Below, one piece after another: positions 2,785 to 23,332 of a DNA stretch of 33,223 nt. The translations under genes and the position numbers were made by a program. The stretch is from Pseudomonadota bacterium (GTDB lineage: Bacteria; Pseudomonadota; Gammaproteobacteria; Burkholderiales; UBA11063): NCBI GenBank assembly GCA_003962985.1, contig RXKA01000071.1:8258-41480 (forward strand). The letters are read 5' to 3'. Numbering within the stretch: position 1 is the first letter of the stretch; each line of letters starts with the position of its first letter. Under the pieces are notes generated by a model that saw nothing but the letters and a program-made list of their open reading frames with translations, ran no database searches and was not told the origin of the DNA.

Positions 2785-2831
2785 TTTAACTACAGCTTAT
2801 TGTAATATTTGGTTTTCATTAGGATCCAAAC

Positions 2832-3282
2832 ATGCAAGATTTTGCAGCTAAAACTCTTACCATCATTAAAGATTTCATTTTTGAAGCGCGGATTGAAAAA
2901 GCAACCTTGATTGCTAACCTTATCCCACTATTCGTCTCTGGGTCCAAAATCTCATTACCACAGTTAGCTATTGCTATTAGTGGGGGACAGTGTAAATCCA
3001 AGAGCTCCGAACAAAAAATACGCAGATTATTGGAACTATTTCCCAATCTCTGCTCCAACATACGCAAAAGCCGTAATTGCATTATTTGATATTTGCTCTG
3101 CTGAGCTAATTATTGATAGAACTAACTAGAGATTTGGAGTTATATCCATCAACTTTCCAGTTTTAGCTATCCGTTGGAATCGTATTGGCATTCCCATATA
3201 TTGGCTAATGCTAGATAACAACTGAGGAAACTCTAGTTCTGAGCAACGTATCGCATTGGTTAATTGGTTTGTATATCAATTG
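2832..3282 (+). pseudogene. Decayed IS4-type DDE transposase remnant
   Basis: The plus strand holds the N-terminal third of a transposase broken by one frameshift and two in-frame stops. The first segment (2832-3089) starts MQDFAAKTLT and contains LIPLFVSGSKISLPQLAIAI and KIRRLLELFPN. Reading then continues in another frame from about 3058 as YAKAVIALFDI, LIIDRTN, stop, RFGVISINFPVLAI, RIGIPIYWLMLDN, stop, GNSSSEQRIALV. The pattern DRTNW-RFG...IPI-W-LLD--GNS resembles the first catalytic region of IS4-type transposases. The first stop (3127-3129) falls exactly where the family has Trp, consistent with a TGG to TAG change. The frameshift near 3059 looks like a 1-nt insertion. No recognisable C-terminal half follows and no terminal inverted repeats could be assigned, so the element is dead. 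Assignment to IS4 rests on pattern recognition, not alignment. Confidence 0.7.
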
Positions 3283-3440
3283 AAACTACGCATATGACAC
3301 AATATCATAGAACATCAGCTTTATTTATGTTACTTACCATCAGTTACTGTTACTACTGTAAACTTGGTTATATCATGAATACAATCAGACTAATAACGAC
3401 AAAAACACTCAGACGTACATATAGATAGAAAGAACCTACT

Positions 3441-3506
3441 GCATAACTTACTATTTTAAAATACGGCTTCTACTTGTTAAAGAACTTCTTTAATAGTTTG
3501 TTATGC
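3441..3506. repeat. 15-nt inverted repeat enclosing two smaller palindromes
   Basis: GCATAACTTACTATT (3441-3455) and AATAGTTTGTTATGC (3492-3506) are complementary at 13 of 15 positions. Between and partly overlapping the arms lie two perfect palindromes: TATTTTAAAATA at 3452-3463 and TTAAAGAACTTCTTTAA at 3477-3493, the latter with 8-nt arms around one central base. The DNA could form a long stem or two alternative smaller ones. It may be an end of the decayed insertion sequence, a miniature element or a transcript hairpin; the sequence does not decide. Confidence 0.5.
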
Positions 3507-3537
3507 GATAGTTCCGTCGTTGCACGACAGCTCTATC
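3507..3537. repeat. Interrupted dyad symmetry of 31 nt
   Basis: Outer arms GATAG (3507-3511) and CTATC (3533-3537) and inner arms GTCGT (3516-3520) and ACGAC (3524-3528) share one centre (TGC, 3521-3523), with mismatched 4-nt segments between them. It directly abuts the inverted repeat ending at 3506. No T-tract follows on either strand, so it is not a standard terminator. Confidence 0.4.
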
Positions 3538-3825
3538 AGATACCAAACTATACGCCTGATACCCAAAAATTCCAAAATTTATAAAATTATTATGAAAATG
3601 ACCTAATTTTCTGCCAATTTTAAAATATTTACTATCTGCGTTTCGGTGAACTTTGAAGTCTTCATTATTAATACCTTTTTATGTTATCTGTTACTGTAAA
3701 TCTCTCTACTTTTGAATGGCATTGTTTTTTGGTGGGATTACCGAACTACTCTTATTTAAACCCATTAAATACAAATAATAAGAATTCTAATTTATAGATG
3801 TAAAAATAGCCTATCAAATTATAAA

Positions 3826-5574
3826 CTACTTCATTATCTGATTATTTAGAGTCAAAATTAATTTTATTTTATCAATTATTCTCTGCCTAGTTCCTACAGG
3901 ATCTCCAACATCAATCAACAGCTTTGGATCAAAATTACATATTATATTATCTTGAGTACATTTACGAGACATTAAATCTAATAAAGTATAATAATAACGT
4001 ACATCAGTAATAGCTGAGGCATATCCTTCCCATTGTATAGTATCAATAACACCATTAGAAGTAGGATAAGTAAACATATGATCATAATAAACACGATCAT
4101 CAAAGTTATTCCATACTGAGCAATAAGCAGTCTGACTAGTAAAACACAATCCACCACTTAACTCACTACTGTGCTGGTGCTCAGGAAAACCAAATTGGTA
4201 AGCAAAAGGCATCGCCCCAGTATAATCATTTTTAATGAGATAATAACCATAATTCTTACGATATAAGAAAGGATTAGCTATTCCAGACTGTGGTTCTCCA
4301 TACAAATAAACATCCTTGCCAAGTGTGCGCATTTGTAATTTATCTTGCTTAGTCTGATTATATAAAGGCAGTGAAACTAATGTTTGTAGATTAGTGAGCA
4401 TATTATTTTCGTATAAATCTCCTTTAAATGATGCAGCAAACACAAAAGCGCCATTATCAGTAACCGCCTTCCATTCCTTGCTTTCTGAAAGTAAAGTACT
4501 CCCGCTTGCCTCATCTATGCCATATAAATATATCTGCGCATTCTTACAATCAGAATTTGTTGATACAATATTTTTCAGCAACCGTATATTAGATTCAAGT
4601 ATTGATAAAACATGCACATGAGTGTCTCCAATACCGCCGATAAAATACATCTTATCGCATGGAAATCCTAATTTATTTCTAATTCTAACATATTGAGCAA
4701 TTACGGATTCATTATCACCAAATAAATACTGCGTTGGGTACAACACACCATGAGATTTTAGATTCTTTAATTCTGCAATATATTGAGACTCTGTTTTAGG
4801 TGTTGACAATAAACGATTAATACCACGTAACTGACCACTATAATAAACAGAATGATTAAGTTTATCATTACTCAATTGAAGAGGAAGAACTTCAAAATTA
4901 AATGGTACAAATAAGTAGCGTTTCTGACTACCAATAAAATATTCAATCTTAAGCTTTATATTATACGACTTAATTTTTGTCAACTGGTTGGTAGTGAGAT
5001 TTAACCATATTTGTTTACCTTGGTTAGACTTAATAATAAATGGTTTTAAATCCTTTGTATCATTAACTATGGCATTATTGCTCATCAATTCAGTAGGAGA
5101 GGAAATATCTAGATAAGATTCAAGTCCATCTTGTAAATTATTCAGATAATTTTTTTGTGTCTTATTATCGATCATAATTAAACTGTCATTCTTTAGCAAT
5201 AATTCTGGTGTTAGCTTTGGATTTGCTAATCCTTGTTTTGTCACAGAAATTCCAGTCTGACTTCCCATATACCAATTCTTTACTACCCGAATATCGTATA
5301 CTAAATTATCTGATTGTACTAGATTAACAATAGAAATACTCTTTATTTTTATATCACTATCATTATTATTACGTAAAATAAATGAGAGAGGTTCATTTTG
5401 CCCTAGTAATAGAGAAAATGATGGCTGAACATAATTAATTGGTGACTTAACCATTGATTCACTAAATAGTAATGAACCTAAAGGGTTCCAATAAAAATAC
5501 TGTAAGTCTCTATTAGGCTTAGCAAAACAATTCGACGCAATAAAGAGTGTTAACAAAAATATTTTTTTAATCAT
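3826..5574 (-). CDS. Secreted DUF4091/GH123-like putative glycoside hydrolase
   Basis: This 582-residue protein starts with a clear Sec signal peptide (MIKKIFLLTLFIASNCFA, cleavage near residue 18) and should act in the periplasm or outside. Residues of about 20-235 look like an all-beta domain ending in FNFEVLPLQL. The rest resembles the TIM-barrel half of DUF4091/GH123-type proteins: YGIDEASGS places an Asp-Glu pair at about 354-355, where GH123 enzymes have their catalytic pair, and near the C-terminus YPTSNGVIDTIQWEG followed by DVRYYYTLLDLM matches the family's W-E-G...D-x-R-Y-x-x-L ending. Known GH123 enzymes act on beta-N-acetylgalactosaminides, and this locus makes an amino-sugar polymer, so a role in trimming, releasing or degrading the polysaccharide is a reasonable inference. 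The ATG overlaps the 3' end of the wbuB-like gene by 8 nt, which suggests translational coupling. Substrate and activity are unproven. Confidence 0.55.
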   Translation of the reverse strand: MIKKIFLLTLFIASNCFAKPNRDLQYFYWNPLGSLLFSESMVKSPINYVQPSFSLLLGQNEPLSFILRNNNDSDIKIKSISIVNLVQSDNLVYDIRVVKNWYMGSQTGISVTKQGLANPKLTPELLLKNDSLIMIDNKTQKNYLNNLQDGLESYLDISSPTELMSNNAIVNDTKDLKPFIIKSNQGKQIWLNLTTNQLTKIKSYNIKLKIEYFIGSQKRYLFVPFNFEVLPLQLSNDKLNHSVYYSGQLRGINRLLSTPKTESQYIAELKNLKSHGVLYPTQYLFGDNESVIAQYVRIRNKLGFPCDKMYFIGGIGDTHVHVLSILESNIRLLKNIVSTNSDCKNAQIYLYGIDEASGSTLLSESKEWKAVTDNGAFVFAASFKGDLYENNMLTNLQTLVSLPLYNQTKQDKLQMRTLGKDVYLYGEPQSGIANPFLYRKNYGYYLIKNDYTGAMPFAYQFGFPEHQHSSELSGGLCFTSQTAYCSVWNNFDDRVYYDHMFTYPTSNGVIDTIQWEGYASAITDVRYYYTLLDLMSRKCTQDNIICNFDPKLLIDVGDPVGTRQRIIDKIKLILTLNNQIMK

Positions 5575-6793
5575 GCTGATATTTCATAAATTGATTTTGT
5601 ATTTGCTGAAAGGCCTTGAACGAGTCAAGTTCCTGTTCGTAAAAGTCACGCCCATTTTCCCCAAGCTTTGCTCTTAATCCAGCATCTGAATATAATTCAA
5701 AATAGCGTTCTAGCAATTCTTCACTATCTCCAGCTAATGCAAATCTACCCGCTTGTGCAATATCAGTCAAGAAGTTACCATAATCCGCTGCGGCACATGC
5801 ATCCAAGCTAGCCAAAATAGGCAACCCAAGCTTAAAATAATCTGTAGTCTTTGAAGGAAAATTGGGCACCGTAAACCTAGCATCTAAACTAACAATCCCA
5901 ATGTCTGCAACTGCGGTAATATATTCATAGTCTTCACGTGGCAATTGTTCAATAAACTGAACATTATCTAGTCCCATTGCATTAGCTAACGAGATTAAAC
6001 GTGGCGTTTCAGTTCCTTTACCCACAAATAGAAATTTTGCGTGTTCTAATTTTGACTGTGCTTTAGATGCAAGCGTAAGAATATTTTCTAGCGCTTGGGG
6101 AACCCCCATATTACCACCAAAAATAGCAATAATATCATCTACTGTATAGCCAAATCTTTTACGTATTGTCAGTCTATCAATAGCAGGAATTGGTTTAATC
6201 ATTGCACTATTATACAACTTATTAATAGCAATATTTGACAATTGTGGATAATGTTTACGTAAATAACTAACATTACCATCTGACATACACCAAATTTGCT
6301 CATACGACTGGAGCATTTTAATTTCTGCGCGTTTAAAAAAATTAAATAACATCCTGTTTTTAATGATACCAATATCCCAAGCATTTTGTGGAAAAATATC
6401 CCATAAGATAAGCTGCGCTGGGCAATTAAAATATTTTTTTAATGGTAAAATGATCTTACGGCTGGACATAAAAGGTGTATGAGTAATGATTAAGTCAATT
6501 GACACACCTTCAAGATATTTTTTAGCTGTAGATACAAAACAATTTGGTAGTGTTAAAATAGTCTTTACTTTCTCAGCTCTAGTACGACAGTTAAAATAAT
6601 TACCTGTTTTTACTCGCAATACATTGTAACCATTTTCTAATGACATCTTCGTTGGCTGGTTATTACGTTTTTCCAACATTGTCATAACATACACATTCGC
6701 ACCAGAGGCCGCAAATGCATCCGATAAATCCTTAGTTAGGGTCGAATCACGAGGATCTGTTGCGTGGCGTGAAAAAATAAATAATACATTCAT
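5567..6793 (-). CDS. wbuB: GT4-family glycosyltransferase, WbuB-like (probable L-FucNAc transferase)
   Basis: This 408-residue cytoplasmic or membrane-associated GT-B glycosyltransferase has an N-terminal acceptor domain starting MNVLFIFSRHATDPRDSTLTK, as in WbuB-type proteins. Its C-terminal nucleotide-binding half contains IFGGNMGVPQALENIL, FLFVGKGTE and FPSKTTDYFKLGLPILA. In E. coli O26 and related loci the gene following fnlA-fnlB-fnlC is wbuB, which encodes the FucNAc transferase; the same order here supports that role. The ATG follows the fnlC stop codon with no intervening base, and its own 3' end overlaps the hydrolase-like gene by 8 nt. All these genes are therefore likely to be translated as a coupled block. 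The acceptor sugar and the linkage cannot be predicted. Confidence 0.8.
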   Translation of the reverse strand: MNVLFIFSRHATDPRDSTLTKDLSDAFAASGANVYVMTMLEKRNNQPTKMSLENGYNVLRVKTGNYFNCRTRAEKVKTILTLPNCFVSTAKKYLEGVSIDLIITHTPFMSSRKIILPLKKYFNCPAQLILWDIFPQNAWDIGIIKNRMLFNFFKRAEIKMLQSYEQIWCMSDGNVSYLRKHYPQLSNIAINKLYNSAMIKPIPAIDRLTIRKRFGYTVDDIIAIFGGNMGVPQALENILTLASKAQSKLEHAKFLFVGKGTETPRLISLANAMGLDNVQFIEQLPREDYEYITAVADIGIVSLDARFTVPNFPSKTTDYFKLGLPILASLDACAAADYGNFLTDIAQAGRFALAGDSEELLERYFELYSDAGLRAKLGENGRDFYEQELDSFKAFQQIQNQFMKYQHD

Positions 6794-7924
6794 TTAGTAT
6801 TTCTTCCAAATAACCCGATTAATGTAATCAGTATAGCTATGGATGATCCGAACAACTTTATCTGATACATTTGGCATGCTATAGTCAGCAACCTGACGTA
6901 ATAAACGCTCATTACCTTGAGATTGAGATTCTAATATCTCTAACGCTTGGAATACACGCTCGCTATTCAAACCAACCATCATCACTGCCGCTTCTTCCAT
7001 GCCCTCTGGACGTTCACTAGCTTCGCGCATGTTTAAGGCAGGAAAATTCAAAATCGATGATTCCTCATTAATGGTACCACTATCAGATAATACAGCTTTA
7101 GCTGATTTCTGTAATTTTACATAATCATGGAATCCCAAAGGCTTGGATAGATTAACTAATGGATTAAAGGTAATGTTTAATTTTTCAACACGCTTTCTGG
7201 TACGCGGATGTGTCGACACAATAACAGGGTACTGATATTTAGCAGCAAGACCGTTTAATATATCAACAATTTTCAGAAAATTGGTATCAGATTCAACGTT
7301 CTCTTCACGATGGATACTAACCACAAAATATTTGCCCTCATGTAGATTCAAACGTGATAATGCATCTGAAGAATCTATCTGTGGCAAATAATGATTTAAT
7401 ACCTCGTACATCGGGCTACCAGTTTTGATAACTAAATCATGCGCCAATCCTTCACGGAGTAAATATTCTCGTGCGATTGAACTATAAGTTAAATTTACAT
7501 CTGCTGTATGATCTACTATTCGACGATTAATTTCCTCTGGCACACGCATGTCAAAACAACGATTTCCTGCTTCCATATGGAAAATAGGAATTTTACGACG
7601 TTTAGCAGGTATTGCAGCCAAACAGCTATTGGTATCACCTAAAATTAATACTGCATCTGGTTTGATATCGGCTAAACAACGATCTACTGCAATAATTACA
7701 TTACCAATAGTTTCCGCTGCATTAGCACCACTAGCATTAAGAAAATAATCAGGCTTACGAATCCCAAGATCTTTGAAAAATATTTCATTTAATTCATAAT
7801 CATAATTTTGCCCTGTATGTGCAATAATATGCTCACAATGCTCATCTAATTTCGCCATAACTCGCGATAAACGAATAATTTCGGGACGCGTTCCAACAAC
7901 TGTTAATACTTTTAATTTTTTCAT
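6794..7924 (-). CDS. fnlC: UDP-2-acetamido-2,6-dideoxy-L-talose 2-epimerase (FnlC/WbjD/CapG)
   Basis: This 376-residue member of the UDP-GlcNAc 2-epimerase (WecB) family should catalyse the last step of UDP-N-acetyl-L-fucosamine synthesis, C2 epimerisation of the L-talose intermediate. Visible family signatures are VVGTRPEIIRLS at the N-terminus, HTGQNYDYELNEIFF, LGDTNS, FHMEAGNRCFD followed by PEEINRRIVDH, VSIHREENV, and SDSGTINEESSIL near the C-terminus. The form FHMEAGNRCFDMRVPEE is the one seen in FnlC/CapG/WbjD rather than in true WecB. Its position directly after fnlA and fnlB confirms the assignment. It starts 21 nt after fnlB and abuts the wbuB-like gene. WecB function (UDP-ManNAc) is the alternative but less likely given the neighbours. 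Confidence 0.9.
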   Translation of the reverse strand: MKKLKVLTVVGTRPEIIRLSRVMAKLDEHCEHIIAHTGQNYDYELNEIFFKDLGIRKPDYFLNASGANAAETIGNVIIAVDRCLADIKPDAVLILGDTNSCLAAIPAKRRKIPIFHMEAGNRCFDMRVPEEINRRIVDHTADVNLTYSSIAREYLLREGLAHDLVIKTGSPMYEVLNHYLPQIDSSDALSRLNLHEGKYFVVSIHREENVESDTNFLKIVDILNGLAAKYQYPVIVSTHPRTRKRVEKLNITFNPLVNLSKPLGFHDYVKLQKSAKAVLSDSGTINEESSILNFPALNMREASERPEGMEEAAVMMVGLNSERVFQALEILESQSQGNERLLRQVADYSMPNVSDKVVRIIHSYTDYINRVIWKKY

Positions 7925-7945: not shown

Positions 7946-9055
7946 TTAAATCTTAAAGTTTATAGTATCTGGCTTTTGACGATCAAAGATCTCATTTGCC
8001 CACAACATAACTACCAACTCATCATCACCGATATTCGTAATATCATGCGACCAGCCTGGGATAGTTTCCACGACCGTCGGATTAGTACCATCAACAATCA
8101 ACTCATAGTACTCACTGGTTACGATATGACGAAAGCGATATTTTGCAGTTCCCTTGATAACTAAAAACTTCTCAGTTTTGGTATGATGGTAATGACCACC
8201 ACGAGTTATCCCTGGGTGCGCAGTAAAAAATGAAAATTGACCACTATCTGGCGTTTTTAACATTTCAACAAATACACCACGAGGATCTTCATGCTTTACT
8301 AAATTATAAGCAAATTTATCAGTTGGCAAAAATGACAAATATGTAGAATACAATGCACGAGTTAGACCTGTACCAACTGGCAAAGTAATTCCACTTTGGA
8401 TACTGTCTTTAAAACCATAAATAATTTGGGCTATTTCACCAACCGTAGTATCATAAACAGGTGAAATGGATTGATAACTAGGCAATTGAGAATGATTATT
8501 ATGCAATAAATCTATCCACGCATCAATCACATCATCAATATAGACTAATTTCACTGTAGCATCAGGATTATGAATAGTGATGGGTAATTCTCGCGCAATA
8601 TTATGACAAAATGTCGCGACAGCCGAGTTATAATTTGGTCTACTCCACTTACCAAAAACATTTGGCAATTGATAAATAAAAACTGGACAATTACTGCGTT
8701 GTTTTAACGCCAATAATAATTTCTCGGCAGCTAGTTTACTTTTGCCATAATCATTATCTAACTGTGATTGAGTAGACGAAGTTAAGATTAATGGAATTTG
8801 CCGACCACTTTGCTCAACTAATGTACATAGTTTTTCCGTCAGATCTACATTACCCTCTTGAAACTCATGTGGGTTTTGTGGACGATTAATCCCTGCTAAA
8901 TGAAAAATCCAATCTGCTTTATCAACTAATGCGGCTAATTCAACCTCGGATTGACCACGTTCAAACGTCATAACCTCATATTGGTCTAATTCTGCTAGCC
9001 TAACACATAAGTTTTTACCTACAAAACCACCAGCTCCTGTAATTAGAACTTTCAT
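7946..9055 (-). CDS. fnlB: UDP-2-acetamido-2,6-dideoxy-hexulose reductase (FnlB/WbjC/CapF)
   Basis: This is a bifunctional enzyme of the UDP-L-FucNAc pathway with an N-terminal SDR-type reductase domain (MKVLITGAGGFVGKNL at the start, DYGKSKLAAE with the Tyr-x-x-x-Lys pair in the middle) and a C-terminal cupin domain with the metal-binding-like motif GGHYHHTKTEKF. It processes the product of FnlA to the L-talose compound, which FnlC then epimerises. The ATG at 9055 (369 residues) is preferred over an in-frame start 66 nt upstream, because the domain begins exactly there, the start lies 4 nt after the fnlA stop codon, and a GAAGG site is placed correctly in the fnlA tail. Both domains appear complete; the length matches CapF. 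Confidence 0.9.
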   Translation of the reverse strand: MKVLITGAGGFVGKNLCVRLAELDQYEVMTFERGQSEVELAALVDKADWIFHLAGINRPQNPHEFQEGNVDLTEKLCTLVEQSGRQIPLILTSSTQSQLDNDYGKSKLAAEKLLLALKQRSNCPVFIYQLPNVFGKWSRPNYNSAVATFCHNIARELPITIHNPDATVKLVYIDDVIDAWIDLLHNNHSQLPSYQSISPVYDTTVGEIAQIIYGFKDSIQSGITLPVGTGLTRALYSTYLSFLPTDKFAYNLVKHEDPRGVFVEMLKTPDSGQFSFFTAHPGITRGGHYHHTKTEKFLVIKGTAKYRFRHIVTSEYYELIVDGTNPTVVETIPGWSHDITNIGDDELVVMLWANEIFDRQKPDTINFKI

Positions 9056-9059
9056 TATG

Positions 9060-10103
9060 CTATTCGCCTTCAAATAAGATATCCAATGATTTTTGTTCAA
9101 CAATTTTACGTAATGTCTCAACTCGTAATAAAACTTTTTTCGTACCCTCTAAGTCTAGACGATTAGTATTATGGGAGTTATAATCAACCAGCGTTTCCAT
9201 ATCAATATTACCTTGATCAAAATACTTACCGTAATTTAAATCTCGAGTATCGGCAGGAACACGGAAATAATCACCGTGATCGATAGAAACAGCCCTTTCT
9301 TCACGTGTTAACAATGCTTCATATAGTTTTTCGCCATGGCGGGTTCCTATTACTTTGATTTCATGATCTGGTTTATCTAGTAACTCAATAATACCACGGG
9401 CAATATCGCCAACGGTTGATGCAGGTGCTTTTTGTACAAAAATATCACCATTTTCACCATTTGTGAACGCATAAATCACCAAATCAACTGCATCATTAAG
9501 AGTCATCATAAAACGCGTCATATTGGGATCGGTAATTGTGATGGGCTGATTATTACGTATCTGATTTACAAATAATGGAATAACTGACCCCCTTGATGCC
9601 ATGACGTTACCATAACGAGTACCACAAATTATAATCTTGTTACTATCTAAGTTACGCGACTTGGCAACCATAACTTTTTCCATCATCGCCTTGGAAATCC
9701 CCATTGCATTAATTGGGTATGCCGCTTTATCAGTACTCAAGCAAACTACACGACTGACACCACATTGAATTGCTGCCTCAAGCACATTTTCTGTACCTAA
9801 AACATTGGTTTTCACCGCCTCAAGAGGATAAAACTCACATGATGGCACTTGTTTTAATGCAGCCGCATGAAAGATAAAATCAACACCACGCACAGCATTC
9901 ATTACACTCTGCGGGTCACGTACATCACCGAGATAGAATTTCAGTTTCGGATGATTATACTTTTTACGCATATCATCTTGCTTTTTCTCATCTCGACTAA
10001 AAATACGAATTTCACCAATATCCATGGTCAAAAAGCGTTTTAAAACCGCATTACCGAAAGAACCAGTTCCGCCGGTTATTAATAAAACTTTATTTTTAAA
10101 CAT
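9060..10103 (-). CDS. fnlA: UDP-GlcNAc 4,6-dehydratase/5-epimerase (FnlA/WbjB/CapE)
   Basis: This 347-residue extended SDR enzyme starts UDP-L-FucNAc synthesis from UDP-GlcNAc in the cytoplasm. The NAD(P)-binding motif GGTGSFGNAVLKRF is at residues 11-24, and the catalytic region reads STDKAAYPINAMGISKAMMEK (about 123-143). The usual SDR catalytic Tyr is replaced by Met at about 134 while the Lys at 138 is kept; this is typical of FnlA/CapE and separates it from PseB/FlaA1, which keep Tyr. A GTGAGAAA sequence serves as the probable ribosome binding site. It is the first gene of the fnlA-B-C-wbuB block and lies 40 nt after the PAP2 gene, so it is likely read through from upstream. Confidence 0.92.
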   Translation of the reverse strand: MFKNKVLLITGGTGSFGNAVLKRFLTMDIGEIRIFSRDEKKQDDMRKKYNHPKLKFYLGDVRDPQSVMNAVRGVDFIFHAAALKQVPSCEFYPLEAVKTNVLGTENVLEAAIQCGVSRVVCLSTDKAAYPINAMGISKAMMEKVMVAKSRNLDSNKIIICGTRYGNVMASRGSVIPLFVNQIRNNQPITITDPNMTRFMMTLNDAVDLVIYAFTNGENGDIFVQKAPASTVGDIARGIIELLDKPDHEIKVIGTRHGEKLYEALLTREERAVSIDHGDYFRVPADTRDLNYGKYFDQGNIDMETLVDYNSHNTNRLDLEGTKKVLLRVETLRKIVEQKSLDILFEGE

Positions 10104-19590: not shown

Positions 19591-20724
19591 TCAGCTACTT
19601 CTAACAATAAATATTTTGTTACGATTTCTAATTATCAAGTATACAAAACTAAAAAACAATCCTAAAAATAATCCTTTTACTATTATACTTAATCGTCGTG
19701 GTTTAGACTTATATAACGGCACTTGAGCTGGATCAATAACTTGAATAGCCAAAGGAACCATTTCACTTTGTGCATCTAGTTGAGCAGCTTTTGATTGCTT
19801 AAGCATAACATCATACACTAATTGTTTAAACATAAGATTACGTGTTAAACTTAAATACTCACTTGTCAATTTAGGAGCTAATCCAACTGGGATAGTAATG
19901 TCTTCATCTATACTACGGTTACTTAATTGATTAATCTGCTTCTTTATTGACTCTATCTTTGTCTGCATTGCTCTATAATCAGGATTGTCGCTGCTCGTAT
20001 AGTACGACATACTCTGCAGCTGCATTTGCGCAGCAATCAGCTGCCCTTGTAACTGAGATGATATACTAGCAATAACACGCTCTTGCTGACCAGCTAGTAT
20101 ACCATTACTTTCTGTAAAAAGTTTTAGCTGATTTTCAGCATCTTTTAATGCTGTAAACGCGACAGATAATTGGCTTTCATAAAACTGATAACGTTGGTTA
20201 GCTCTAGAGTATGCAACATTATTAATAGCTTGACCTAAAGCTACGGTATAGTAATTAGCAATATCTGCTGCCAATTGAGGATTCTTATTGTCTACGTCTA
20301 TTTCTACAAAACCAGTCCGCAAATCTGGAACAAATCTAATAATAGTACTTAACACTCTTCTTGTTACATCAAAATCTGTTCTATTCCACATTTTTATTAA
20401 ATTGAATTGCCTAATAACCATATCACTCACAGAGTCAGTTCTCATAATTGCTATTGCAATATCTGCATCCGTCTTCTGCAACAATCCACTTCCACCACTG
20501 GTCAACGCAGTTATTCCACTAATGACCTGAGAAAATCCTGTTCCTGAATCAGTTAATTTAGGTGGATTAATTAAAACCTTTGCAGTATAAATCGGGGTGG
20601 CAAAAATACAGTACACAATAGCAATAACAGTAGAAAAAGAAGTCAGAGCCCCTATAAACTTCTTATTACACTTTATAACATCAATCACTGCTTTCCAATT
20701 GATTTCTTTTTCTTTACTAGACAT
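19591..20724 (-). CDS. wzz: Wzz-family chain-length determinant / polysaccharide co-polymerase without kinase domain
   Basis: This 377-residue inner-membrane protein has a first membrane helix at about residues 22-44, a long periplasmic region with coiled-coil character (about 190-270, rich in Gln/Leu/Ala), and a C-terminal DPAQVPLYKSKPRR segment followed by a second helix ending at about 372. That Pro-rich motif before TM2 is the signature of Wzz/Wzc/KpsE co-polymerases. There is no Walker A motif or tyrosine-rich tail, so it is the kinase-less type. The ATG at 20724 (MSSKEKEINWK) is chosen over an upstream in-frame start that would overlap wza, because it follows an AGAAG site and lies 11 nt after wza. 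No Wzb phosphatase or separate kinase is seen in the window. Confidence 0.83.
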   Translation of the reverse strand: MSSKEKEINWKAVIDVIKCNKKFIGALTSFSTVIAIVYCIFATPIYTAKVLINPPKLTDSGTGFSQVISGITALTSGGSGLLQKTDADIAIAIMRTDSVSDMVIRQFNLIKMWNRTDFDVTRRVLSTIIRFVPDLRTGFVEIDVDNKNPQLAADIANYYTVALGQAINNVAYSRANQRYQFYESQLSVAFTALKDAENQLKLFTESNGILAGQQERVIASISSQLQGQLIAAQMQLQSMSYYTSSDNPDYRAMQTKIESIKKQINQLSNRSIDEDITIPVGLAPKLTSEYLSLTRNLMFKQLVYDVMLKQSKAAQLDAQSEMVPLAIQVIDPAQVPLYKSKPRRLSIIVKGLFLGLFFSFVYLIIRNRNKIFIVRSS

Positions 20725-20734
20725 TATTTTTCTT

Positions 20735-23332
20735 CTAATTTTTAAATACAGTAATTGCAGCAGCTGCAGTACCAAAGTTAGCTAAGATCTGTGTCCAATT
20801 TAACAGGTTCTGCATCGTACCACCAAATTGAATTTGCTGTGGTACTATCACGGCATCACCAGGATTAAGAGTTTGTCCACCAAAACCACCAAACCACCCT
20901 GATTGCTGACGGTTATATAATGTACCATCAGCACGTAAGACATATTCGTTCGAGGTATCGGCAAACTGATTTTCAGTTCCTGCCATTTTGATATAGTCAT
21001 TAACCGTTGTATTTGGCTTATACATAAAAGTTGCAGGGTTGTAAACTTGACCGATTACATCAACCGTTGATGGTCTAGTTGGGATATAAATAGTGTCACC
21101 ATTTTCTATTTGAATATCAGGTAAATGCTCTAGATCGACAGAAGCAGAATCAACCCCTAAGACAACTCTACCACTAGGTTTAATCTGGCGCATTTTACCA
21201 ATAAATGCTTGCTGTTGCGACAATACCTGATTTTGAATTGACACCTGTGTTGTTGATGTAGCACCCGCATTTGAGTTACTAATATTACCCAATAAACTTT
21301 GTTGTAGCTGATCCAACATCTGATTTAAAATTACAACTTGTTTTTTCTTCACTGATTCACGATTTAATTCAGTACCATATAGGTAAGCTTTTGTAGATAT
21401 ACCACCAGCTTTCTGAATAACATCAACTATAGTGCCTCCTGGTTTCATCTCATAAACCCCAGGTGCATTAACTTCACCATCAATAAAAACATAAACGGTG
21501 GATGTTGATGATGGTGTACGCACATCTTTAGATGACAAAATATCTATTACATCACCTGGCTGTAATAAGATATCATTGGCAGCATCTTTATTAAGAGCCT
21601 TACGTAAATTAAATGGGATTACACTAGTTGAGAATGTCTCTTTATTTAAGCGAATTACTGTTGCATAGTTCCAATTGATATTTGCCTCTGGTATCTGTAT
21701 TGGACCTGCAATAAATAAATTATCACTAGCACCAAAAACTTTACCACTATTGCTATTGGCACCAGCACCTGAAGAACCATTCAATCCTGTTGAATACATC
21801 GCCGTACTATCGGCATTAACTTGGGTAGTTGTTTTCTCGCGTCCAATCTGAGTTAGTAAATTGTCACGACCACCAGTATTGTATGAATAACTATTCCAAA
21901 AACTCTTAGTTAACAATGCTGCTTTATCTGGGATAGCATCACTAATTCGCATCCCTTCTCGATAACCTAAACGGGTTGGCTCTGCCACGTTACCCATTAG
22001 TACAATGCTACTTTCATAACTATTATTTAAACTAAAGAAATGAACAATGTCACCATCATTTAAAGCTATTTGCAAACCTTGCTTCATGTCATAATCAGTT
22101 ACCTCAATCGCTTGATTAGCCGTTAGATGTTCTACAATAACTTTCTGTTTATTCACATTATAATTAAAACCACCTGCAAATTTAACTAACTGCTCTATAT
22201 TTTCATGAGCTCTTGTCTCATAAATTGCAGGAACTTTGACACCATCATAGATGGCAACCTGATTACCACGTGGTGCAAAGTATAAAGTATCCCCTGGTAA
22301 TAAGCGTACATCTTTAGAATTATCACCATGCAATAATACGTCATACATATCAAAGTCAGCGACAACTCTACCATCACGTTTAACTTCTATGTGACGCAAT
22401 GAGCCAGCAAGAGATGGTCCACCAACCGCAAATACTGCGTTACTAATCGTAGAAAAAGCACTTAACTGATATGTCCCAGGACGAATTGCATACCCTGCTA
22501 CATTTACTGAGATAGATCTCACTTGGCTAACTGTGGCAGACATTGAAAAATTACGGTAAACTCGTCCAATTTTACCCTTTAAATAGGTATCTAAACTACT
22601 GGCCTTGATTCCAACCACACTAATTTTACCAACTTTAGGAATAAATATTGAACCATCTTTAGCCACTGGAGTTGAGAAGTCTACATTCATACTCCCCCAC
22701 GCTTTTAGGTTTACTATATCACCAGGACCTAAAGTATAATTAGCATCAACAGGCATGTTATTGACTGGTGCAAACGTCTTTGGATAGAAAAATAAACTAT
22801 AACCAAAAACAGGTAAAAATATCCCACTACGAATCTGCACATTTTTTTGGAAAATATCTTGAGAAGTCAGTGGATTAGCAACATAACCAGTTCCCAACAC
22901 ACTTGGGACATAAGCTTGCTGACCACCCATTACACCAATGCCACCATTACGCATATTAATATTAGAATAGTTTTGCCATAAATCATTACTATTAACGCTA
23001 TTTTTGGTATAATCATCACCATTCATCGCTCCACCAGCCGCGGCATTTCGATAAAAATCATCATCACCAGCCGTTGAACGATATAACTCTGTTTGATTAT
23101 TCAAATTTAATGAGGCATCACCAGCGAAACCGCCACTAATTGGTGGAACAATTACACTAGCCCCGCCTGAATTAGTAGAAGCAGAGTTACCAGAGTCACC
23201 TCCAAACATCGCACTACCACCACCAAGATCTCCACCGAGCCCAGCATCTCCGCCAATAGCGCCGCCTGCATCATCAGAATATACAAAACTAATTAAACCT
23301 AAGCTAAACATTACGAGTATTATTTTACGCAT
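20735..23332 (-). CDS. wza: Wza-like polysaccharide export protein with multiple SLBB domains
   Basis: This 865-residue secreted protein is much longer than E. coli Wza (about 380). It has a Sec signal peptide ending near VYS (19), with no lipobox Cys. A Gly/Ser/Asp-rich low-complexity region covers about 20-75. The polysaccharide export domain begins near residue 195 (DANYTLGPGDIVNLKAWG). SLBB-type domains follow at about 275-350 (VNVAGYAIRPGTYQLSAF), 360-430, 610-660 (VFIDGEVNAPGVYEMKPGG) and 755-805 (VIGQVYNPATFMYKPN). The C-terminal segment (NLLNWTQILANFGTAAAAITVF) could form the outer-membrane helix barrel, as the last helix does in Wza. It is followed by wzz 11 nt later. It should form the outer-membrane exit channel. 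The ribosome binding site is weak. Confidence 0.85.
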   Translation of the reverse strand: MRKIILVMFSLGLISFVYSDDAGGAIGGDAGLGGDLGGGSAMFGGDSGNSASTNSGGASVIVPPISGGFAGDASLNLNNQTELYRSTAGDDDFYRNAAAGGAMNGDDYTKNSVNSNDLWQNYSNINMRNGGIGVMGGQQAYVPSVLGTGYVANPLTSQDIFQKNVQIRSGIFLPVFGYSLFFYPKTFAPVNNMPVDANYTLGPGDIVNLKAWGSMNVDFSTPVAKDGSIFIPKVGKISVVGIKASSLDTYLKGKIGRVYRNFSMSATVSQVRSISVNVAGYAIRPGTYQLSAFSTISNAVFAVGGPSLAGSLRHIEVKRDGRVVADFDMYDVLLHGDNSKDVRLLPGDTLYFAPRGNQVAIYDGVKVPAIYETRAHENIEQLVKFAGGFNYNVNKQKVIVEHLTANQAIEVTDYDMKQGLQIALNDGDIVHFFSLNNSYESSIVLMGNVAEPTRLGYREGMRISDAIPDKAALLTKSFWNSYSYNTGGRDNLLTQIGREKTTTQVNADSTAMYSTGLNGSSGAGANSNSGKVFGASDNLFIAGPIQIPEANINWNYATVIRLNKETFSTSVIPFNLRKALNKDAANDILLQPGDVIDILSSKDVRTPSSTSTVYVFIDGEVNAPGVYEMKPGGTIVDVIQKAGGISTKAYLYGTELNRESVKKKQVVILNQMLDQLQQSLLGNISNSNAGATSTTQVSIQNQVLSQQQAFIGKMRQIKPSGRVVLGVDSASVDLEHLPDIQIENGDTIYIPTRPSTVDVIGQVYNPATFMYKPNTTVNDYIKMAGTENQFADTSNEYVLRADGTLYNRQQSGWFGGFGGQTLNPGDAVIVPQQIQFGGTMQNLLNWTQILANFGTAAAAITVFKN

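Follow-up and report, generated by a model that had tools for sequence, protein, structure and literature searches.

Gene content and organisation of the locus

The window, by which is meant the whole stretch of 33,223 nt that was analysed, carries a Wzx/Wzy-type polysaccharide locus on its minus strand. In the order of that strand, dTDP-sugar genes are followed by genes for a polysaccharide export protein (20735–23332), a chain-length-type protein (19591–20775), an aminotransferase, an acetyltransferase, a WzxE-like flippase and glycosyltransferases. Next come a multi-spanning Wzy candidate of 493 aa, for which no family match was found in the Pfam and NCBIfam scans, a PAP2 protein, and three fnl genes: fnlA, encoding a UDP-GlcNAc 4,6-dehydratase/5-epimerase (9060–10103; best model TIGR04130, 601 bits, below its cut-off of 730), fnlB, encoding a WbjC-type reductase of the UDP-L-FucNAc pathway (7946–9121; NF047837, 605 bits, cut-off 500), and fnlC, encoding a wecB-type UDP-HexNAc 2-epimerase (6794–7924; TIGR00236, 235 bits). 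A wbuB-like GT4 glycosyltransferase gene (5567–6793), recognized by GT1-type Pfam models and a WcaI-family NCBIfam model, then leads into the gene of interest, which encodes a protein of GH123 fold (3826–5574). Insertion-sequence debris, a wecA-like gene for an initiating phosphosugar transferase (1570–2703; PF00953, TIGR02380) and a TviB-like UDP-HexNAc dehydrogenase gene (261–1544; NF011729, 516 bits, below the cut-off of 592) lie downstream, all on the minus strand apart from the debris. Thus, the GH123-fold gene closes the variable part of the locus and lies within the glycosyltransferase region of a cluster that has Wzx-like, export, glycosyltransferase and WecA-like genes nearby. A preliminary description of this DNA held that wbuC is usually the gene after wbuB in comparable loci; this is so in an E. 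coli record, but not in a Diaphorobacter or a P. aeruginosa record.

By eye, the debris between the GH123-fold gene and the wecA-like gene (2820–3700) occupies both strands and consists of broken transposase-like frames, without any complete gene.

The GH123-fold gene and its product

The GH123-fold gene runs on the minus strand from an ATG at 5574 to a stop at 3826 and encodes 582 aa. The frame and its translation agree with the coordinates given previously, as does the 8 nt overlap of its start with the upstream glycosyltransferase gene. Identity by codon position to the closest full-length relative (62 % identical; contig L004) is 69/78/53 %, which indicates a constrained protein-coding gene. 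The protein starts with MIKKIFLLTLFIASNCFA, which by eye has the features of a typical signal peptide of the Sec type (MIKKIFLLTLFIASNCFAKP, about residues 1–20; 5515–5574, minus strand), and a hydrophobic leader is also present at the start of the related proteins. Beyond the signal peptide, six cysteines (307, 343, 477, 485, 539 and 546) are conserved in every full-length relative. Both sequence motifs singled out earlier can be read in the translation; GIDEASGS contains D354-E355, and the W-E-G...D-x-R-Y ending is W515-E516-G517...D524-V-R526-Y527.

Fold and relationship to GH123

Standard family searches did not place the protein. No Pfam or NCBIfam model recognizes it or its relatives, PF13320 (GH123_cat/DUF4091) has no match to the window protein (P0001) or the relatives at E values up to 10 and none in the source genome at 1e-5, and a phmmer search of the protein against PDB gave chance matches only. 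Weak matches to Lipase_C, DyP_N and Pih1 were rejected as far under their cut-offs. A profile built from the four family sequences, searched against PDB sequences, had the GH123 enzyme NgaDssm (8k2j) as its best match (E 0.015). Local profile–profile comparison in hhalign returned a probability of 0.1 with a three-sequence GH123 alignment and became informative once 19 sequences were used on the GH123 side, with a score of 40.1 over 366 columns; 150 column shuffles gave a mean of 16.6 (sd 2.8, maximum 28.6) and the reversed profile 17.4. A plain HMM test of three members, with 200 shuffles each, was marginal (9.8 bits for the L004 relative and 5.4 for P0001, against 4.4 for the best shuffle).

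Structure prediction points to GH123 as well. The first AlphaFold model was made from an alignment of the four family sequences only and is poor (pLDDT 43, pTM 0.35), yet its top 19 Foldseek matches in PDB are all GH123 β-N-acetylgalactosaminidases (E 6e-8 to 5e-5), and in VIA-align GH123 entries alone cover the sandwich and the barrel together (8k2j, Z 10.6, residues 22–381). As no GH123 sequence entered this model, the match is not circular, although the training of AlphaFold may have included GH123 structures. The second model, partly guided by 13 GH123 sequences in its alignment, reached a pTM of 0.63 and a pLDDT of 57.5; all of its top 22 Foldseek rows and top 17 VIA-align rows are GH123 structures, the best in VIA-align being NgaDssm (8k2j) with Z 18.6 and an rmsd of 3.9 over 430 residues, versus Z 11.1 for the best row outside GH123.

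Both models contain, at low to moderate confidence, an N-terminal β-sandwich (about residues 22–235; 4870–5511, minus strand) followed by a (β/α)8 barrel with a DUF4091-like segment (about residues 236–520; 4014–4869, minus strand), the sandwich matching the all-β N-terminal region proposed from sequence. The eight barrel strands of the second model fall at approximately 240–241, 277–280, 308–315, 347–353, 376–381, 398–401, 421–424 and 453–454. Thus the search for a TIM barrel and the comparison with GH123 structures, both suggested in the preliminary description, came out in favour of its GH123/DUF4091-like assignment as far as fold is concerned. Strict membership of the family did not stand, given the missing PF13320 match and the residue changes at Trp431 and Arg478 described below.

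The putative catalytic pair and conserved residues

The putative catalytic pair, Asp354-Glu355 (4510–4515, minus strand), lies at the end of barrel strand 4, directly after strand 347–353 of the second model, where local confidence is below 50 around residues 353–357. It falls exactly on the Asp-Glu pair of GH123 in the first alignment and in the MAFFT genafpair and globalpair alignments, and one residue off in hhalign and MAFFT localpair; the proposed correspondence therefore holds exactly or to within one residue. Y425, G453, Y503 and W190 fall on conserved GH123 residues in three MAFFT strategies. With the numbering of NgaLy and the residue roles assigned in PMC11087588, the substrate-site Tyr392 is Y425 in all three full-length members, the structural Gly427 and Tyr466 are G453 and Y503 in all four members, and the structural Trp115 is W190, while Asp95 falls on N166 or on E124 of PELLL, depending on the alignment. 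Part of the DUF4091 signature GD....YP...R is likewise present as D498-x4-Y503-P504 (4060–4083, minus strand).

Other positions have diverged. The Arg of the DUF4091 signature is replaced by Gln514 (codon 4033–4035), which is also the position of the structural Arg478; Gln is found there in 4/4 family members and Arg in all 20 of the GH123 sequences aligned. The substrate-site Trp431, Trp in 20/20 of the same sequences, is Phe457 in every one of the four members, and changing W431 of NgaLy to alanine strongly lowers activity (PMC11087588). NgaDssm has about 40 residues more between the sandwich and the Asp-Glu pair, which implies that active-site loops have been lost in the window protein.

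Compared with NgaDssm (Group 3, 8k2j) and NaNga of Niabella (8p4l), the window protein thus shares the sandwich and barrel, an Asp-Glu pair after strand 4, a secretion signal, the Tyr after strand 7 (Y425), the Gly at strand 8 (G453) and the D-x4-YP motif. It differs from them in an identity of only some 10–15 %, the lack of a PF13320 match, Phe and Gln in place of Trp431 and Arg478, one relative without the Glu, fewer residues before the pair and a longer insertion in the N-terminal domain.

Relatives and distribution

The family is very narrow in distribution. It is present in 3 of the 23 genomes of the source genus, and no relative was found in the remaining 397 genomes sampled from the phylum (398 with the window's own) or among the plasmids, phages and viral contigs searched. 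A fourth match within the genus (E 0.03) was dismissed as noise, and weak matches in Bacteroidota and in genome G003 (E 0.006–0.03) were judged to be due to chance.

The 62 % identical relative on L004 has a conserved gene order, with the end of fnlB, fnlC and a wbuB-like glycosyltransferase gene preceding the GH123-fold gene. A second relative (L005) is a fragment, 75 % identical, at a contig end, immediately ahead of wecA-like and TviB-like genes. The third (P0003; L002/L006) is 48 % identical and follows a family-2 glycosyltransferase gene in a locus of the pseudaminic-acid type, which encodes PseB, C, F, G, H and I. Spacing to the preceding glycosyltransferase gene is an 8 nt overlap in the window, a 7 nt gap in L004 and direct adjacency in L002. 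The Asp-Glu pair is retained in P0001 and in the 62 % identical relative; P0003 has Asp-Gly and so is without the acid/base Glu.

P0003 (L002:1183–3183) also carries about 90 additional residues at its N-terminus, which by eye have coiled-coil character. The L004 contig is binned in a Sphingobacteriaceae MAG; its genes are 62–93 % identical to those of the window, and on these identities the contig is probably a mis-binned piece of an organism related to the window's genus.

Between the window and L004 the GH123-fold protein is 62 % identical, versus 91 % for FnlC, 93 % for FnlB and 74 % for the glycosyltransferase. Faster divergence of this gene than of its neighbours is as expected for a specificity gene.

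The wbuB-like gene (64–65 % identical) also occurs in three sister genomes, with fnlC seen ahead of it in G002 and G005, but in none of them does the GH123-fold gene stand beside it. A dedicated role in L-FucNAc metabolism, as had been proposed, was rejected on this synteny and on the pseudaminic-acid locus of P0003. The GH123-fold gene is not part of UDP-FucNAc synthesis; the same two observations make it an optional accessory of variable polysaccharide loci.

In two of the sister genomes the wbuB-like gene is followed by a gene of opposite orientation other than the GH123-like one (L032:6020–7138 and L034:1–918, both on the plus strand of their contigs). In G005, three large lipoprotein-like proteins (L033:7198–14001) follow the wbuB-like gene in place of a GH123-like one.

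Predicted function and alternatives

The window protein may be an exported hydrolase of the Wzx/Wzy-type locus, retaining and substrate-assisted in mechanism, that acts on the cell's own polysaccharide; this is the most economical of the readings considered and the likeliest, and we put it at about an even chance. The enzymatic activity, substrate, linkage and physiological role that it comprises are what we infer from the computed fold and locus context. Asp354 would hold the 2-acetamido group of the substrate and Glu355 would act as the general acid/base. Cleavage would take place at a 1,2-trans HexNAc linkage of the polymer, either in the periplasm or outside the cell, and would restrict the length of the chains, set polymer free or remove misplaced material. 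Participation of a 2-acetamido group requires a 1,2-trans bond, whereas the α-L-FucNAc that WbuB-type enzymes usually form is 1,2-cis and thus would not be cleavable by a substrate-assisted mechanism. The target is more likely a β-D-GlcNAc/GalNAc linkage, such as the Wzy-closed bond of a WecA-initiated repeat, than the FucNAc bond. If active, the protein would represent a ready-made hydrolase for an amino-sugar polysaccharide.

A non-hydrolytic binder has to be taken seriously as a rival, because of P0003 and the altered substrate site. Such a pseudo-enzyme would be a secreted polysaccharide-binding protein, i.e. a lectin, chaperone or chain-length factor, that has kept the GH123 fold and lost hydrolysis; loss of the catalytic Glu in the pseudaminic-acid locus, replacement of the substrate Trp and structural Arg in all members and the shortened barrel loops are in keeping with it. 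However, P0001 and the 62 % identical relative keep the Asp-Glu pair, Y425, G453 and the YP motif, none of which would be needed had activity been lost before these two diverged, and we consider the binder possible but on the unlikely side. A combined scheme is doubtful, in which a separate subfamily of the GH123 clan co-evolves with the repeat unit of a single variable locus for surface polysaccharide, as an endo-hydrolase in FucNAc-type loci that, in loci of the pseudaminic-acid type, has lost its acid/base and turned into a factor that binds chains without hydrolysing them. If true, it would link a switch from enzyme to binder to the serotype of the sugar coat. With a Glu-bearing copy in a FucNAc-type locus and a Glu-less copy in a pseudaminic-acid locus of one genus, the reason for a hydrolase in a polysaccharide cluster becomes directly testable.

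The remaining alternatives are improbable. Characterised GH123 enzymes mostly come from the degradation and use of outside glycans (PMC11087588), and the protein could be a scavenging exo-glycosidase that merely happens to be located in a polysaccharide locus. Against this, the gene is closely coupled to those of glycosyltransferases in each of three different loci, and no uptake or catabolic gene was found nearby among the window ORFs in the Pfam and NCBIfam scans. Retaining, substrate-assisted glycosidase folds are also capable of transglycosylation, and as the last gene ahead of the wecA-like gene it could serve a late step, such as linking polymer onto a surface acceptor; no acceptor or anchoring motif was seen, however, and such a tailoring role is hardly to be expected. 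That the barrel belongs to another glycosidase family (GH2/GH5-like) unrelated to GH123 is very improbable, even with the 10–15 % identity to GH123 near or under HMM thresholds, as GH2/GH5/GH30-type structures reach Z of about 10 against 15–18.6 for GH123 entries with the second model in VIA-align, and the first, GH123-free model ranks the families in the same order.

Comparison with known systems

As a putative degradative enzyme whose gene lies in the operon for synthesis of the polymer that it would act on, the window protein resembles AlgL, PslG, PelA, PgaB and BcsZ. AlgL is a periplasm-clearing enzyme (PMC8829089) and PslG is co-transcribed (PMC9075953). Their folds or families differ from that of the window protein, however, and several of these enzymes belong to synthase-dependent systems. 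Closer in setting is WceF of Pantoea stewartii, a stewartan hydrolase encoded in a Wzy-dependent EPS cluster, the loss of which lengthens stewartan (PMC7949094). As in the window, the gene for a secreted (in the window, putative) hydrolase lies in the glycosyltransferase region of a Wzy-dependent cluster; unlike the GH123-type barrel of the window protein, WceF is a trimeric β-helix of the tailspike type, and its signal is Tat rather than Sec.

The kind of system is therefore already known, from WceF, from the neighbourhoods in the GH123 expansion paper, where neighbouring genes are taken to suggest capsule or O-antigen as the target of some relatives (PMC11087588), and from two Bacteroidota loci. 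The earlier suggestion of a new kind of locus member does not survive these precedents; what is new is the sequence family and its diverged use of the fold. With this family, the GH123 fold reaches proteins missed by all public family models and becomes connected with the synthesis of bacterial coats instead of the digestion of outside glycans.

The two Bacteroidota loci contain genuine GH123 genes (L035:8513–10108, minus strand; L036:8216–9805, plus strand), with PF13320 scores of 211 and 203 bits, respectively. These are clear PF13320 members, whereas the window family goes unrecognized; otherwise the window resembles them in having a secreted GH123-fold protein, a gene overlapping that of a glycosyltransferase and an export-type polysaccharide locus. 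Each of the two genes lies between two glycosyltransferase genes, with overlaps of 4 and 8 nt, and Wza/Wzc-like, Poly_export, Wzi-like and UDP-sugar dehydrogenase genes are found nearby.
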